Positions 6,251 through 47,997 of a stretch of 64,000 bases of DNA are shown piece after piece. The notes beneath the pieces were generated by a model. It searched no databases. It was not told the DNA's origin and worked only from the letters and a program-made list of their open reading frames with translations. Made by a program: the position numbers and the translations under genes. This DNA comes from Bacteroidota bacterium (GTDB lineage: Bacteria > Bacteroidota > Bacteroidia > Palsa-965), in contig JABDCB010000001.1 of assembly GCA_013288325.1 (NCBI GenBank), positions 1 through 64,000 on the forward strand. Reading direction: 5' to 3'. How positions within the stretch are numbered: the first letter of the stretch is position 1; each line of letters begins with the position of its first letter.

Positions 6251-7642
6251 ATGGGTCAATCAGAAAAACACACACTTACGAATGGAAAGCCTCTTATAAG
6301 AGGACTCGGGCTCAAAGAAGCGACCGCGATCAACATAATTGATATGGTTGGTATGGGTCCGTTTATTATCATTCCTTTTGTTATAAACCGGATGCATGGC
6401 CCCCAATGCATATTAGCCTGGTTACTTGGAGCATTTCTGGCATTTATGGATGGGTCGGTTTGGGCAGAGCTGGGGGCTTCCTATCCGGCAGCCGGCGGCT
6501 CCTATGTATTTCTCCAAAAAATTTATGGAGAAAAAAAGTGGGGATCTCTTTTTGCTTTCCTTTTTATATGGCAAACCAGTATACAAGCTCCTCTTGTAAT
6601 AGCTTCCGGCGCAATCGGTTTTGCACATTATTTTAATTATCTGGTCCCCCTGAGTGCAGTCGGCCAAAGAGCTGTGTCAGGAGGGTTAATCCTGCTTCTG
6701 GCTTTTCTGTTATACCGTAAAATAAGTGACATAGGAAAAATTTCATTGATTATGGGACTGCTGGTTGGCCTTACGCTCCTTTGGGTTATCGTTGCAGGGT
6801 TTACACATTTTCATGCTTCCTATATTCTGGATGTTCCTTCTGATTCATTTAAGCTAAGTCCGATTTTTTTTACAGGACTAGGCCTTGCATCCACAAAAAC
6901 TATTTATTCTTTTCTTGGCTATTACAATGTCTGTCACCTCGGTGCTGAAATAAAAGATCCAGAGAAAAATATTCCCCGAAGTATTTTTATTTCGATTAGC
7001 GTCATTACGATTATTTATCTCCTGATGCAGGTAAGTGTACTTGGAGCAATGCCTTGGCAGGAATCCGAGACATCTACCTACTTTATCAGCACGTTGTTTG
7101 AAAGATTATATGGGGTTATAGCTGCCAATATTGTTACCATACTCATCCTGTTCGTGGGAATTGCGAGTCTGTTTTCTGCAACACTTGGCTACTCACGTAT
7201 TCCTTATGCGGCGGCAATTCAGGGTAATTTTTTCAAATTATTCGCCAGAATACACCCTTCCAGGCAATTTCCACATATTTCGTTGCTGTTCCTTTGTGGA
7301 GTAGCTTTTTTGTTCAGCCTCTTTTCTGATTTATCAACGATTATTACCGTTATCGTTATTATGAGGATTCCGGTACAATTTGTAGGTCAGGCAGCAGGGT
7401 TAATAGCATTGCGTTATCGAAACAAAAAGAGCCCCAGGCCATATCGTATGTTATTATTTCCGATACCGGCTGTAATTAGTATCTTCATCTGGCTCTTTGT
7501 GATGTTCAGTATGGAATGGAAAGTATTTGCTATGGCATTTGGTGTGGTTGCCATAGGATTGATGTTATTCCTGGTCAGAGCAAAGAATAACCGGACATTT
7601 CCCTTTGTGGGAAAAGGGCAATCGGTTGTAAATCAATCATAA
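6251..7642 (+). CDS. APC-family amino acid permease
   Basis: About 12 hydrophobic segments; GxGxxxGPFIIIPF N-terminal helix and SFLGYYNVCHLGAEIKDPEKNIPRSI motif. Confidence 0.9.
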   Translation: MGQSEKHTLTNGKPLIRGLGLKEATAINIIDMVGMGPFIIIPFVINRMHGPQCILAWLLGAFLAFMDGSVWAELGASYPAAGGSYVFLQKIYGEKKWGSLFAFLFIWQTSIQAPLVIASGAIGFAHYFNYLVPLSAVGQRAVSGGLILLLAFLLYRKISDIGKISLIMGLLVGLTLLWVIVAGFTHFHASYILDVPSDSFKLSPIFFTGLGLASTKTIYSFLGYYNVCHLGAEIKDPEKNIPRSIFISISVITIIYLLMQVSVLGAMPWQESETSTYFISTLFERLYGVIAANIVTILILFVGIASLFSATLGYSRIPYAAAIQGNFFKLFARIHPSRQFPHISLLFLCGVAFLFSLFSDLSTIITVIVIMRIPVQFVGQAAGLIALRYRNKKSPRPYRMLLFPIPAVISIFIWLFVMFSMEWKVFAMAFGVVAIGLMLFLVRAKNNRTFPFVGKGQSVVNQS

Positions 7643-13370: not shown

Positions 13371-14093
13371 CTAACGTTTGAATACCATTGACTCAACAAG
13401 AACGTGTTTGGCAACAGGAACAACCAAATCATACTCCACTTCCTGGTTGCTTTTTGGCCCTTTTTCGAGTGCTATACAACGGGGAGTCTTTCTAAGCTCC
13501 AGCATGCGTTCTCTGTCGTAATCAGTACTGGTAGCTAAGGTTTCTGCATTCATAATACCCACAACTTTAGCCAGATATTCTTCCGTAGGATAGATGAAAT
13601 CTCCATTGTTGCCAAGACTCCGGTCTATTATAAATCCAACACGTGTGAACATTGGCAGTGAGTATTCAGCACAAATACCAAGTAAAGTGCGAAAATGTAA
13701 TTGATTAATGATGGATATAGCAGCGCGTACAAGTAAAATACTAATGCCCTGTCCGGCTACTTCTTTTGAGTTCCAGAGCCCGCATAATTCCCCTGCGCCT
13801 CCGTCTATCCTATGTTTAACAACCAAATCATAAACCCGATGATCCATTTTGCCTACTGCCGTTTCCACAGGCAGGGGATGAAGTCCGTCGGCTACTTGTA
13901 CGCGTATTCCACCTACTAGTTTTCCATTTAGTTCCGCCACAACACCATAAGTATATGGATTTTCTATCCAATCTTTGTTATAAGAAGTTATATTAAGTAT
14001 ACCGTAGTCTTCCAGCACCTTCCGATGTCCTTCTATGTATTCAAGGCTTACGGAATGTTCCTCCAGAGGGTAAAATGATCTGATCTTTAACAT
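13371..14093 (-). CDS. GNAT-like / autoinducer-synthase-fold N-acyltransferase (putative)
   Basis: VVAELNGKLVGGIRVQV...GELCGLWNSKEVAGQGISILLVRAAISI...FTRVGF acyltransferase-like pattern. Confidence 0.6.
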   Translation of the reverse strand: MLKIRSFYPLEEHSVSLEYIEGHRKVLEDYGILNITSYNKDWIENPYTYGVVAELNGKLVGGIRVQVADGLHPLPVETAVGKMDHRVYDLVVKHRIDGGAGELCGLWNSKEVAGQGISILLVRAAISIINQLHFRTLLGICAEYSLPMFTRVGFIIDRSLGNNGDFIYPTEEYLAKVVGIMNAETLATSTDYDRERMLELRKTPRCIALEKGPKSNQEVEYDLVVPVAKHVLVESMVFKR

Positions 14094-14096
14094 AGT

Positions 14097-16418
14097 TTAC
14101 TCGAGGTAAAGCACGTCGTCCACAGGGCGCCGAAGCGCCCTAACATCTATTTGATCTGCAACATGAATTCGAAACAGGAAAATCTCCCCTAACTCGGGAG
14201 ACAATGAAAATAAACGAATAAAACGCGATCGTAAGTCCTGTAATTCTTCCTTCATAGCAGGTGTAAATCCAGCTCCATTACCCTGGATGAGGCGGTGAAA
14301 GAAAAAAGTGCAGGCAGAAACGGGGTGAACAGAAAGTCCGCTTTTATTTGCCTGAAGCCAAGCTTTTTGTAATGCCCGTCCACCATTATAAAAATTAAAA
14401 GGACTGTAGGCCGGCATTGTAACAAGACCAACAGCAGAGGCGGAAGCGATTGCCTTACGCCCCATTTTTTCAAAAGCCTGTCCGCCTTTCCATTCATTCA
14501 GATGATGTATAACACCCGGAGCTGTTGACATCCGTAAGCCGGCAAGTTCAGAAGGAGTTAACTCAATTGTAGCAAGATCTACACCATCTTTTGTTTTTGC
14601 TGCTTCCTCGGGTGTCCATCGTATCTCACTTACAAAATCACGATGATCTTCTTCACTCATTAAGCGGATGCGATCCACAGCCCCGACAATATCTGCTACC
14701 TCATCAAGCTCCTTAGAGGAGCTAATGATTTTCAATTCGGCTCCGTGAATAGTCTGAGAGGCTCTTTTAATTTCTTCAAGCAAGTGAGGAGCCAGATTTT
14801 GTCGCTGTCCATATTTCCGGTTAGTGCCCCGGCTAAAAATTGTTCCGGAAAGCATGTCACAATCGTGAGATTCTAATATACCGGTGGAAGGAACCTGGTT
14901 TTTTGAATAAAAACGAAAAACAGAAACGAGCTTACTGGAAGAAGGCAGAAGACAATCAGTACTCACTTCCAGATTCAATTCGTGTGCCTTTAGAATAAGA
15001 TTTTCGGTTGCTGCCCCTAGTCCTATATGTGAGGCCGTATTTTGAAAGTCGAGTAACGACACAGAGCGAATACGATCATGAAACAAATAAAGGCTTTTGT
15101 TGGTGTACAACCATTTCCAAGGCTGACAATTGGCACCAGTAGGAGCAGCAATAGCTGCCGAGATAAGGGTAACCAATTGGGTTTTGTTGAGTTCAAGTTG
15201 TTGATCGTCAGGAACAATATTTTGTTTTTGTATAGTGTCGTGCATTTCCTTTTGGGTCAGCACCGTTTCTCCGGTAGTTTCGGGTTGAGCAACTGCAGAA
15301 GATGGTTTATCGCAGATCAGCTCTTCTAAATCCACAAAATAACGTCCGGATTCATGAAACTGATCCAGGCTAATTCTTCTGCATACATCCGCAGCCAGCG
15401 CAGCTCCCAGAACAACGGATGAACCAAGTTGAGGCCATGTGGTAAGGGTTTGGCCTATTTCTATCATAGAAGCCTTTAGCTTAGATGAAATAGTCTCTGC
15501 TCCCAACATGGGAAGGATATAAGGTACTTTTTCTTCATTGTTCAGATTTTTAATACGACTGATATCCAGGTGGTCAATCATTCCATGCAGCAAAGGGCGA
15601 TCGGGTTCCAGATCAAATCGTTCTACGTCAAGTGTACCGCGGTCATTCATATCCATTACAACCGGAATTCGCATGGCTCTTGCTTTTATTCTGCACTGTA
15701 TTTTGATATCCAGTCCGTCACACTCTTCAACAAGTATATCAAGTTTACCACCTTTTTCGAAAAAGTCATCCATGTTTTCCTCTGTGAGACCGTCGGTATA
15801 ACACACCGTTTTCAGATATGGATCCATTTCTGCAATTTCTCTTGCTACTACAATGGCTTTCGAAATGCCAATATTGTGTAAGCCGGTCTGAATCCGGTTC
15901 ATATTGGTAAGTTCCAACAGATCGAAATCGGCCAGCCGGATTTCCCCGAAACTACGTTCCAATGCCATGGCCATGGCAATCGTTTTGCCAACGGAGAGAC
16001 CGACCACCCCGATTTTTAGTTTGCCAAGACGGTCGCGCTCCTGAACTGTAATTTTATATTGATTCCGGTTTGTTCTTACCTCAATAAATTCACTTTCCCC
16101 GAGTACATGTACAAGGCGTGAAGACCAGGGATAGTATACCCAAGCACCGTATTCATCGGGATTAAAACCTTTCAGATGGTGATCTGCCAATTCATTCAAT
16201 TGGTCGGTATTCAGCTTTAGCTTGGGGTTTCTTGATTTGAGCAGTTCACGAAGCTGTGAGTAAATTTCATTGCTTATCTGGAGGTGAGGAACATCTTTTA
16301 TTAATTTGTCCAGCTCCTTCCTGTCGGCATCCTGCTGCAGATAAAAAACGCGGGGATGATAAACAGTGTCAGAAGAAGAAGCTTTTCTTTCTAACGACGC
16401 AAACAGGGTTTCCGACAT
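14097..16418 (-). CDS. ThiF/E1-like adenylating domain fused to nitroreductase-like domain (Rv1355c/MoeY-type)
   Basis: N-terminal GVVGLSVGKTIAMAMALERSFGEIRLADFDLLELTNMNR; central AAIAAPTGANCQPWKW and SRGTNRKYGQRQ nitroreductase-like segments. Confidence 0.8.
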   Translation of the reverse strand: MSETLFASLERKASSSDTVYHPRVFYLQQDADRKELDKLIKDVPHLQISNEIYSQLRELLKSRNPKLKLNTDQLNELADHHLKGFNPDEYGAWVYYPWSSRLVHVLGESEFIEVRTNRNQYKITVQERDRLGKLKIGVVGLSVGKTIAMAMALERSFGEIRLADFDLLELTNMNRIQTGLHNIGISKAIVVAREIAEMDPYLKTVCYTDGLTEENMDDFFEKGGKLDILVEECDGLDIKIQCRIKARAMRIPVVMDMNDRGTLDVERFDLEPDRPLLHGMIDHLDISRIKNLNNEEKVPYILPMLGAETISSKLKASMIEIGQTLTTWPQLGSSVVLGAALAADVCRRISLDQFHESGRYFVDLEELICDKPSSAVAQPETTGETVLTQKEMHDTIQKQNIVPDDQQLELNKTQLVTLISAAIAAPTGANCQPWKWLYTNKSLYLFHDRIRSVSLLDFQNTASHIGLGAATENLILKAHELNLEVSTDCLLPSSSKLVSVFRFYSKNQVPSTGILESHDCDMLSGTIFSRGTNRKYGQRQNLAPHLLEEIKRASQTIHGAELKIISSSKELDEVADIVGAVDRIRLMSEEDHRDFVSEIRWTPEEAAKTKDGVDLATIELTPSELAGLRMSTAPGVIHHLNEWKGGQAFEKMGRKAIASASAVGLVTMPAYSPFNFYNGGRALQKAWLQANKSGLSVHPVSACTFFFHRLIQGNGAGFTPAMKEELQDLRSRFIRLFSLSPELGEIFLFRIHVADQIDVRALRRPVDDVLYLE

Positions 16419-18171: not shown

Positions 18172-19449
18172 TTAGCAATTAATAAGTGTATAAACCTCTT
18201 TGTCTAATTTTTCCCGATGATCGGGGTGAGCGATTTTAATCAACGCCTTTGCTCTGTCTTTTCTGCATTTACCATAAAGATTGGCTATGCCGTATTCTGT
18301 AACAACATAATGCACATGCGCACGGGTGGTGACTACACCGGCTCCCGGGTGAAGCATATTTACTATCCGTGATTCGCCTTTTGACGTGGTAGCGTGGAGG
18401 GCAATAATAGGCTTTCCCCCTTCGGAAAGGGAAGCACCACGGATAAAATCCATTTGTCCTCCTACACCGGAATACATTATCGATCCAATACTGTCGGCAC
18501 ATACTTGTCCGCTTAAGTCAATTTCTATCGCACTATTGATTGCTACTACTTTTGGATTTTGACGTATAATATGCGTATCATTTACGTAGGCTGAGTCTTC
18601 CATTTCAATTAATGGATTATCATCCACAAAATCATACAATCGGCGACTTCCAAGAATGAATCCGGCAACTATTTTACCGGGATGTTTTACCTTATGCTCT
18701 CCAGTAATAACTCCTCTTTCAACCAGATCAATGACCCCATCGGAAATCATTTCACTATGAATTCCCAATTGTTTATGATTTCTCAGTTCGCTTAATACTG
18801 CATTAGGAATATTTCCAATCCCCATTTGCAAGGTGGAGCCATCTTCTATAAGACCGGCTACGAGTTTCGCTATTTTGATGTCACGTTCGCTTGGCTGGCT
18901 GCTAATGACTTCGGGAATAGGCTCATTCACTTCCACCATGTACTTAAAGCGTGACATATGAACCATACCTGCCCCATGTGTACGGGGCATTTGCGGATTT
19001 ACCTGGGCAATGAGACAGCCTGCGTTCTCAATGGCTGAGGGAGAAAGATCTACAGATGTACCCAGACTGCAAAATCCATGTTTATCGGGTGGAGACACGT
19101 GAAGCAAAGCCATATCGAGAGGAATAACCTTTTTTCGGAACAGCGCCGGCACCTCACTTAAAAAAACCGGAATATAATCAGCCATCCCATTAGCAATAGC
19201 TTTCCGCAAATTACTGCCAATAAAGAAACAATTGGTTTTGAAATGACCACGCAATGATTCATCAGCATATGGAGCAGGTCCTTCCGTATGCATGTGGTAC
19301 AGATTAATGTTTTCCAGCATACGACCATTCTCTACCAAAGCCTTAATAAGAGCCTGTGGTGCAGCAGCAGCCGATTGGATAAAGACGTGGGAGCCGGATG
19401 TGAGTCCAGAAAGTGCTTCGGAAGCCGATACATAGGGCTTGTTTGTCAT
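18172..19449 (-). CDS. Acetyl-CoA hydrolase / 4-hydroxybutyrate CoA-transferase family
   Basis: LQMGIGNIPNAVL, GGQMDFIRGASLSEGGKPIIAL, VVTEYGIANLYGK motifs. Confidence 0.9.
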   Translation of the reverse strand: MTNKPYVSASEALSGLTSGSHVFIQSAAAAPQALIKALVENGRMLENINLYHMHTEGPAPYADESLRGHFKTNCFFIGSNLRKAIANGMADYIPVFLSEVPALFRKKVIPLDMALLHVSPPDKHGFCSLGTSVDLSPSAIENAGCLIAQVNPQMPRTHGAGMVHMSRFKYMVEVNEPIPEVISSQPSERDIKIAKLVAGLIEDGSTLQMGIGNIPNAVLSELRNHKQLGIHSEMISDGVIDLVERGVITGEHKVKHPGKIVAGFILGSRRLYDFVDDNPLIEMEDSAYVNDTHIIRQNPKVVAINSAIEIDLSGQVCADSIGSIMYSGVGGQMDFIRGASLSEGGKPIIALHATTSKGESRIVNMLHPGAGVVTTRAHVHYVVTEYGIANLYGKCRKDRAKALIKIAHPDHREKLDKEVYTLINC

Positions 19450-45560: not shown

Positions 45561-46628
45561 ATGAATATGAACAAAACAATCTTGCTGATTGAGGATAATG
45601 CCTCTATGAGGGATAATACCAGAGAACTCCTGGAGCTTTCGGCATACAAAGTATATACTGCAGAAAACGGTAAGATTGGGGTTGAGCTTGCAAAAAAAGT
45701 GCATCCCGATCTGATCTTATGCGATATCAATATGCCCGAACTGGATGGGTATGGGGTACTTCATATTTTAGGAAAAAGTGAAGACACAGCCGGCATCCCT
45801 TTTGTTTTCCTGACTGCAAGAGTGGAAAGAGTTGATTTCAGAAAAGGGATGACCCTGGGTGCTGATGACTACTTAACCAAACCGTTTGATGATGTTGAGT
45901 TGCTGGATGTGGTGGAGATGAGATTAAGAAAAGCGGATTTGTTTAAAAAAGAGATTGAGAAAGCCGATACAGGTTTTGATCGGTTCATCAATGACGCAAA
46001 AGAAACCAATATGCTTAGTTCGTTTTCGAACGAACGGAGTTTAAAGAAACATAAAAAGAAAGAATCCATATTTACCGAAGGCAACTATCCGGTTGGGTTA
46101 TATCTCATCAGCAAAGGAAAGGTAAAGACCTACAAAACCAATGAAGCGGGTAAGGAGCTTATTACCGGAATTTATAAAGAAGGAGATTTTGTAGGGTATG
46201 TTCCATTGCTGGAAGATACAACCTATACAGAATCGGCAGAGGCTTTGGAGGAGGCGGAGATTTACATGATACCCAAACAGGATTTCTTTTCCCTTATTTA
46301 CAATAGCAGGGAAGTGTCGCGCAAGTTTATCCAGCTTCTTTCCAATAACCTTTCCGAAAGGGAAGACAGGCTTATTAAACTGGCTTATAACTCGGTCAGG
46401 AAGCGTGTTGCCGAATCCCTCGTTATGTTACAGCATCAATACCAACAGGATAAATCAGGCAAAACGTCCATTCCTATTTCCAGAGAAGATTTAGCAGGAA
46501 TTGTTGGAACAGCAACAGAATCGGTTATCAGAACATTGGGCGATTTTAAAGAAGAAGGGTTAATAGAAATAAAGAAGGGAGATATTTTCGTACTTAGCCT
46601 GGAAAAACTGAAGGAGCTTAAAAACTAA
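45561..46628 (+). CDS. Response regulator: receiver + cyclic-nucleotide-binding-like + Crp/Fnr HTH
   Basis: REC (LLIEDNASMRDN, CDINMPELDG), cNMP-like barrel, HTH_Crp ISREDLAGIVGTATESVIRTLGDFKEEGLIEIKKGDIFVL. Confidence 0.93.
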   Translation: MNMNKTILLIEDNASMRDNTRELLELSAYKVYTAENGKIGVELAKKVHPDLILCDINMPELDGYGVLHILGKSEDTAGIPFVFLTARVERVDFRKGMTLGADDYLTKPFDDVELLDVVEMRLRKADLFKKEIEKADTGFDRFINDAKETNMLSSFSNERSLKKHKKKESIFTEGNYPVGLYLISKGKVKTYKTNEAGKELITGIYKEGDFVGYVPLLEDTTYTESAEALEEAEIYMIPKQDFFSLIYNSREVSRKFIQLLSNNLSEREDRLIKLAYNSVRKRVAESLVMLQHQYQQDKSGKTSIPISREDLAGIVGTATESVIRTLGDFKEEGLIEIKKGDIFVLSLEKLKELKN

Positions 46629-46661
46629 GCATCTGTGTAATAAGGTCGATCAGGAATAAAC

Positions 46662-46684
46662 AAAAGGCCCGGTCAGGGCCTTTT
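46662..46684. terminator. Bidirectional intrinsic terminator AAAAGGCCC-GGTCA-GGGCCTTTT
   Basis: Perfect 9-bp inverted repeat with A/T-rich flanks just after the regulator gene. Confidence 0.85.
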
Positions 46685-46789
46685 GAATTGTTCGTAACAG
46701 GTAAACAGAATTGCAGCCAGGGCCATCAACCATAATGCATTATTGAAAAGCCATGCGGGGAGAGATTTCGTGCGTGTCTTGTGTTTCAT
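46673..46789 (-). CDS. Small (38 aa) single-TM protein, putative
   Basis: MKHKTRTKSLPAWLFNNALWLMALAAILFTCYEQFKRP; ATG lies directly after TACATTTG, so the start is uncertain. Confidence 0.35.
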   Translation of the reverse strand: MKHKTRTKSLPAWLFNNALWLMALAAILFTCYEQFKRP

Positions 46790-46888
46790 GCCAAATGTAT
46801 TATAGGTAATGCAAAGGAAAGGACGATACGTGCTATAAACAATGACTTTCATCACCCATGGACTCTTACACGCAATCCATTTGCACAT

Positions 46889-47315
46889 ATTTTATCTGTA
46901 TGCGTAAAAGGAGCGTTTCATTATGTGCTTGCCCCTATTTTATGTGCTCATAAAAGGTATGCATTCGTGCTTGAATCTATTTTATGTGCTCATAAAACGT
47001 ATTTATTCATTCTTATATCTATTTTATGTGCTCATAAAATGTATTTATTTACGCTTGAATCTATTTTATGTACTCATAAAAAGTATTTATTCATGCTTAT
47101 ACCTGTTTTATGTGCTCATAAAATGTATTTATTCATGCTTGTACTCATTTTATGTGCTCATAAAACGTATTTATTCATCCTTGCACCTATTTTATGTGCT
47201 CATAAAATATATTTATTCATGCTTGTACTCATTTTATGTGCTCATAAAGTGTTCCCGTTCACGCATGCAGTGTCTCCCTTCACTCATAAAGTGTTTCCGT
47301 CTATTCATGCAAGGA
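46889..47315. repeat. 42-bp tandem repeat array; seven well-matched units (46938-47231) plus degenerate edge units; core TTTTATGTGCTCATAAAA
   Basis: Units start at 46938, 46980, 47022, 47064, 47106, 47148, 47190 and 47232 (exact 42-bp spacing). Confidence 0.95.
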
Positions 47316-47400: not shown

Positions 47401-47490
47401 TCCGTTCAACTTTAGACCACCTCCGAGTCTTTAATATTAAGTTAACATTGGGTTTTCACCTTTTCCTGTTATAAAAATTGTCGTATCTTG
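47401..47490 (+). promoter_or_regulatory. Putative promoter: TCCG..., 21 bp later TCCG... (weak LytTR-like direct repeat) and -7 TATCTTG
   Basis: TCCGTTCAAC at 47401 and TCCGAGTCTT at 47422; TATCTTG at 47484-47490. Confidence 0.35.
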
Positions 47491-47529: not shown

Positions 47530-47997
47530 ATGGCTCACGTTTTTGTCCGATTTTTTATCGTAATGACCCTATTAGCGGGTGTTTCCTGTCTTTCAGAGAA
47601 ACCACACCAGACACAAGCGGTGAAGGCTCAGCCTTTTAACTTTGTCCTTAACAGGATGGACACTACTTGTTTTACGGTAGCAGAAGCAGAAAAGCTAAGA
47701 GGAGGAAAGAGCTATGTAACCATAGCTTTTGATGAAATGATTCTGGATACTGTTTCACATTGTCTGGGTTTGTATCGGTATGGCTTGAGTGAAAAACCGG
47801 CCTGGCCGGCAGCACATGGTATCAAGTGTTATGCACTTAAGTTCAGAGACAAGATTGAAATAGCAGAACAACAACCAAACCGGGTTGTCATCCTCGACGA
47901 TTTTTTTGCTCAATACGGGAAGATGTTTACCGAACAACAGCAAAAAGATATCCGTGCAAAATTCATGTCAGATTGCACGTTAGTACAGGGAGAGTAA
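47530..47997 (+). CDS. Putative lipoprotein of unknown function
   Basis: N-terminus with lipobox-like LLAGVSC. Confidence 0.6.
   Translation: MAHVFVRFFIVMTLLAGVSCLSEKPHQTQAVKAQPFNFVLNRMDTTCFTVAEAEKLRGGKSYVTIAFDEMILDTVSHCLGLYRYGLSEKPAWPAAHGIKCYALKFRDKIEIAEQQPNRVVILDDFFAQYGKMFTEQQQKDIRAKFMSDCTLVQGE

Follow-up and report, generated by a model that had tools for sequence, protein, structure and literature searches.

A 42-bp tandem array of candidate protein-binding sites among genus-wide intergenic repeats with periods in multiples of 21 bp

The window, a 64,000-nucleotide stretch of DNA from a Bacteroidota bacterium, carries an intergenic 42-bp tandem repeat (array 1) that we read, with a probability of roughly 45%, as a non-coding, DNA-level array of candidate sites for a sequence-specific DNA-binding protein. 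Each 42-bp unit would offer one 18-bp dyad core, that is, one site every four helical turns. With this spacing all copies would lie on one side of the DNA, which would make side-by-side binding possible. Binding of the putative protein would require this helical phase, and the requirement would in turn maintain both the core and the period. Array 1 appears to belong to a class of intergenic arrays present in every sampled species of the genus. These arrays are locked to multiples of 21 bp, the length of two turns of the DNA helix, and differ in unit sequence. Their copies occur at several loci in one genome, to which they are probably carried as a unit. The bound array may serve the host, through local chromosome structure, insulation or regulation, or may chiefly promote its own spread.

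Structure of array 1

Array 1 comprises eight full 42-bp units on the forward strand (46928-47263), starting at 46928, 46970, 47012, 47054, 47096, 47138, 47180 and 47222, with decayed edges. Tandem Repeats Finder places it at 46926-47252 with a period of 42, 7.8 copies and 0% indels. The 42-bp tandem array of the original prediction is thus confirmed, with an eighth full unit added, and the alignment of units that it proposed as a check returns the same period with no indels. The unstranded 18-bp dyad cores (TTTTATG-TGCT-CATAAAA; 46938-47249) begin at 46938, 46980, 47022, 47064, 47106, 47148, 47190 and 47232. The pattern TTTTATGNNNNCATAAAA is matched exactly at the first seven of these positions and with one mismatch at 47232, giving eight matches against 0.87 expected in shuffles. 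Two cores are altered, by a G to A change in the centre at 47064 and an A to G change of the last base at 47232. The former, in unit 4, is the single core substitution previously noted for units 1-7, and it lies in the 4-bp centre without touching an arm.

To the right, a half-decayed ninth unit (47264-47305, forward strand) continues in phase, and a 21-bp sub-repeat is discernible at 47241-47300. On the left edge, a weak degenerate unit (46886-46927, forward strand) fits best 2 bp out of phase. A weaker 21-bp period is present within and alongside the array. The exact helical phasing supports the earlier proposal that the 42-bp spacing puts the dyads on one DNA face.

Constraint on the core in two related arrays

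Deviations from the consensus are concentrated outside the core of array 1. In units 1-7 they occur in 1 of 126 core cells versus 25 of 168 linker cells, and in all eight units in 2 of 144 versus 33 of 192. A permutation that allows for the post hoc choice of the best 18-column block gives P=0.0026 for units 1-7 and P=0.0009 for eight units.

A pattern search of 2.81 Mb of the window's genome (G000; 59.6% complete) revealed a further array built from this unit on another contig (array 2; C76:6624-6959), which likewise has eight complete units and a decayed one. Identity between the two arrays (33.7 of 42) equals that within them (34.4 and 33.8 of 42), and their end units correspond, judged by eye. 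Over the 16 units, 4 of 288 core cells deviate versus 80 of 384 linker cells. This supports constraint on the dyad, as had been suggested from array 1, with the qualification that the two arrays are copies related to each other, as their matching end units and shared polymorphisms indicate, and so do not constitute two independent tests of constraint.

The 15 columns that are polymorphic in both arrays all fall in the linker (P=1.3e-5), which indicates that the core was already constrained before the arrays separated. Letters private to one array avoid the core weakly (4 of 17 in the core versus 7.3 expected, P=0.08), so most of the constraint signal predates the split. The asymmetric centre TGCT shows 1 change in 64 cells across both arrays, a degree of conservation that palindrome correction alone would not give. 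Apart from decayed units and short matches attributable to chance, the flanks of the two arrays have nothing in common. We note that TTTAATATTAA occurs between array and gene in both cases (window ~47430-47440; L011 ~7217-7227, at the array 2 locus), which may be chance in AT-rich DNA.

Genomic setting and distribution of the array 1 sequence

Array 1 lies between a gene for a response regulator with cNMP-binding and Crp-type HTH domains (RR-Crp; 45561-46628, forward strand) and a forward-strand gene (47530-47997) encoding a 155-aa protein. The N terminus of this protein is signal-like, and searches found neither a Pfam match nor a relative in the family. A terminator-like hairpin (46661-46685, forward strand) 3' of the RR-Crp gene agrees with the terminator originally predicted upstream of the array. 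Besides the regulator and the small orphan protein, neighbouring genes encode a histidine kinase and a 664-aa protein that lacks a Pfam match; no par or rep gene, the mark of a partition or iteron site, was found among them. The histidine kinase and RR-Crp genes are kept in the congeners, the latter at 74-77% identity in three congeners that all lack array 1, and the sequence departs from the window immediately afterwards. The synteny breakpoint falls at window position 46629 in all three; each continues with different sequence, and none has a counterpart of array 1 at this locus.

Array 2 is preceded by a gene for a 210-aa protein (L011:5919-6551) without a Pfam match, whose family has 5-13 copies per congener genome and is absent from the two sister-genus genomes searched. 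Because this gene belongs to a large paralogous family, orthology of the array 2 locus could not be set.

The search for orthologous arrays proposed in the original prediction was run on 58 relatives. It returned no array with the array 1 sequence, and at the array's own locus synteny ends after the RR-Crp gene. A sequence profile gave weak single hits across the family and nothing more, and no such array was found in plasmid and phage collections. Single 18-mers of the core are scattered in unrelated genomes, with two single hits in viral contigs. The search for further core sites in the genome, also suggested earlier, found array 2 and, outside both arrays, one weak 1-mismatch match in 2.81 Mb (~60% of the genome), as compared to four for a reversed control pattern. 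Neither a regulon nor a decoy target is therefore visible in this part of the genome, and the earlier idea of a decoy or titration array is left without its target.

These observations bear on a further reading, in which array 1 is an operator cluster for a conventional regulator of the downstream gene (47530-47997). Both arrays do precede a co-oriented gene whose product begins with a signal-like stretch, but the sparsity of single sites in the 2.81 Mb, the lack of relatives of the downstream gene in the family and the position of other arrays of the class between convergent genes make such a role improbable. CRP sites have the form TGTGA-N6-TCACA and FNR sites TTGAT-N4-ATCAA. The Crp/Fnr contact bases are missing from the core: its right arm, read from the centre, is C-A-T-A-A-A-A and lacks the TCA triad. 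Together with the retention of RR-Crp in congeners that have no array, this speaks against the Crp/Fnr likeness drawn previously.

A class of arrays with periods of 21n bp

Each of the four species sampled in the genus, namely G000 and the congeners G001, G002 and G003, contains many intergenic arrays of differing sequence. The period is 21n bp in 26 of the 29 long non-coding arrays from these species, mostly without indels; the DNA was sampled in part (871 kb of G000, 305 kb of G001, 310 kb of G002 and 95 kb of G003), and in the G000 sample the choice of the window and of C76 was not random. Self-identity plotted as a function of lag has peaks at 21, 42 and 63 bp for the four species and shows no such peaks in two sister genera, where neither of the two long non-coding arrays (377 kb sampled) has a 21n-bp period. 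In other families of the class Bacteroidia, the proportion is one of three.

About half of the arrays tested show significant dyad symmetry, so it is the period, not the dyad, that defines the class, and a universal dyad was rejected. A 7-bp sub-period was likewise rejected, as lags 7 and 14 carry no signal in most arrays examined. Arrays occupy tandem, divergent and convergent gaps between genes (long ORFs picked mechanically), and the class is thus not tied to promoters.

That dozens of unrelated-looking arrays nearly all have periods of 21n bp points to a protein-bound DNA structure, not to a gene or an RNA. Most reports of bacterial minisatellites have presented them as isolated curiosities. 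In this genus, by contrast, an exact two-turn period is common to many unit sequences that are unrelated to one another, and the phase survives most sequence change. If the phase is selected, the class would be a bacterial analogue of satellite DNA with helical organisation, and it would have a protein partner. We advance more tentatively the broader proposal that the genus carries satellite-like DNA, in which dozens of unrelated intergenic arrays are held at 21n bp by a phase-sensitive nucleoprotein, spread within genomes and are replaced between species.

Two related arrays from another Bacteroidia family (G014) each contain six near-palindromes TCGCACATGTGCGA exactly 42 bp apart (L185:345-568 on G014:C1 and L261:520-743 on G014:C59). 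The core-linker contrast is not significant in these copies (P=0.23). Some of their linkers align best with compensating gaps, although gapped alignments this short (28 bp) carry little weight.

Helical phase in diverged E elements

A dispersed non-coding element of ~620-780 bp, termed E, is composed of 21-bp quasi-units and occurs at about 14 loci in G000 (L108:12720-13500, L161:17789-18481, L150:8700-9392, L104:12189-12853 and about ten others). The copies have similar ends, and the left half of the element is in part an inverted copy of the right half. The 33-35 quasi-units of an element have a mean identity of ~40%, yet in most copies the autocorrelation peaks fall on exact multiples of 21; the L150 copy shows a 1-bp drift in phase. 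One pair of copies aligns gap-free over 748 bp at 81% identity, this being the longest gap-free block, chosen after the fact. The probability of such a block is P=0.0008 at an indel-to-substitution ratio of 0.05 and P=0.014 at 0.03, both ratios being assumptions. Copies at lower identity contain indels of mixed length.

Dispersal of the arrays

The main rival of the protein-bound reading is a selfish or neutral minisatellite carried on a MITE-like dispersed element akin to BrickBuilt, in which the period stems from the copying or expansion mechanism and has no host function. We regard this as possible but somewhat doubtful, and hold the same view of its corollary, that the core is conserved through the element's own mobilization or because the element is young. 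Several features of the class fit such an element. Unit sequences are mostly private to one species, and a given unit family can be found at 2-5 or more loci within one genome, with one family at five loci in G002. The E elements occur at about 14 loci, and the G014 arrays lie within a duplicated element of roughly 0.9 kb. In G002, an array and its flanks (~390 bp) are present twice at 99% identity (L143:~14027-14440 and L206:~18940-19360), and arrays of unlike unit type share one conserved end of ~60 bp. BrickBuilt of Porphyromonas gingivalis provides a precedent (PMC4596501).

Slippage alone, however, leaves unexplained both the exact 21n-bp period of many unrelated units and the persistence of phase at ~40% identity. 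Arrays 1 and 2 share no flanks, having no leader, tail or inverted ends. A gene for a REP-type Y1 transposase (Y1_Tnp), which might move such an element, was not found in G000 (60% complete) or G001 (98% complete), and three were found in each of G002 and G003; these counts do not support Y1 transposase as the mover of the arrays. The protein-bound and selfish readings may also both hold, in the form of a spreading element whose putative binding protein sets the period.

Among individual families, one with a 42-bp unit occurs at three G000 loci (L118:12914-13291, L120:6784-7182 and L146:14838-15194; GTGCATCGATGCTTGGAGTAT GTGCATCAAGTCTTGGACATC) and was not found in the congeners. The L143/L206 pair of G002 looks like the product of recent copying, and no target duplication is obvious. 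The leader-like ends shared by G002 arrays of unlike unit type (TCTGGCTGGACCAACATGCAGCAGTCATTCGATCTCTGCCCCCCAGCTTTTGACATT) lie at L142:18869-18922, L206:3615-3668, L143:13957-14010, L140:341-397, L204:9861-9911 and L213:16484-16531.

RNA and coding potential

The repeated dyads could in principle act as a string of hairpins at the RNA level, an option raised in the original prediction that we now consider very improbable. Both strands fold better than shuffles, but they score alike, as palindromes do, and the strong folding of both strands follows from the palindromic units. Several arrays of the class fold no better than shuffles, and no Rfam match exceeded the threshold. Covariation beyond the marginals was detected in paired columns of 1 of 16 arrays (G002g, P=0.003), and paired columns show no bias of G-T over A-C. 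Lack of both signals is as expected for DNA half-sites; covariation thus does not favour RNA, with the proviso that the arms of arrays 1 and 2 vary too little to inform.

Translation of the region into a 14-aa (or 7-aa) repeat protein, named at the outset as a finding that would overturn a DNA-level interpretation, is the remotest of the readings. Frames +1 and +2 are open across array 1 and the period is divisible by three, but codon tests show no codon-level constraint in array 1. In arrays 1 and 2, frame +1 has a synonymous share of 0.29 and frame +2 one of 0.23, compared to 0.30 in the stop-containing frame +3. The L223, L118 and L212 arrays carry stops in all six frames, pN/pS in the most open frame is ~1 or above for most E pairs, and there is no Pfam match.

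Comparison with known systems

A CRISPR array is not supported, as the linkers of array 1 are variants of one sequence and not unrelated unique spacers. Array 1 resembles Crp/Fnr operators in the approximate length of its dyad, whose 4-bp centre is like that of FNR sites, but differs in lacking the contact bases and in having no other clear sites in the 2.81 Mb searched. In iteron arrays and plasmid partition sites, direct repeats lie about two helical turns apart and align the bound proteins on one face. Judged from sequence, array 1 appears to share with them a repeat spacing set by helical turns; it differs in the absence of an adjoining rep or par gene and in the many unit families per genome.

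Our literature search for a 21-bp array class found none, returning only BrickBuilt and heptamer repeats. The heptamer direct repeats TAACTGA of Beggiatoaceae, Cyanobacteria and some Bacteroidetes (PMC4679880) are, like the present arrays, intergenic direct repeats with no spacers and a patchy distribution, but they have a 7-bp instead of a 21-bp period and a single sequence instead of many. BrickBuilt, a minisatellite/MITE of P. gingivalis, itself a member of the Bacteroidota, has a 23-nt unit and a leader and tail with inverted ends (PMC4596501). It shares with the class a strictly intergenic tandem array at several loci per genome, a limited host range and the gain and loss of whole units. 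In contrast to BrickBuilt, a leader and tail with terminal inverted repeats are not common to arrays 1 and 2, although some G002 arrays share an end, and the arrays described here combine a 42/21-bp period with many sequence families, where BrickBuilt has a 23-nt unit and one.
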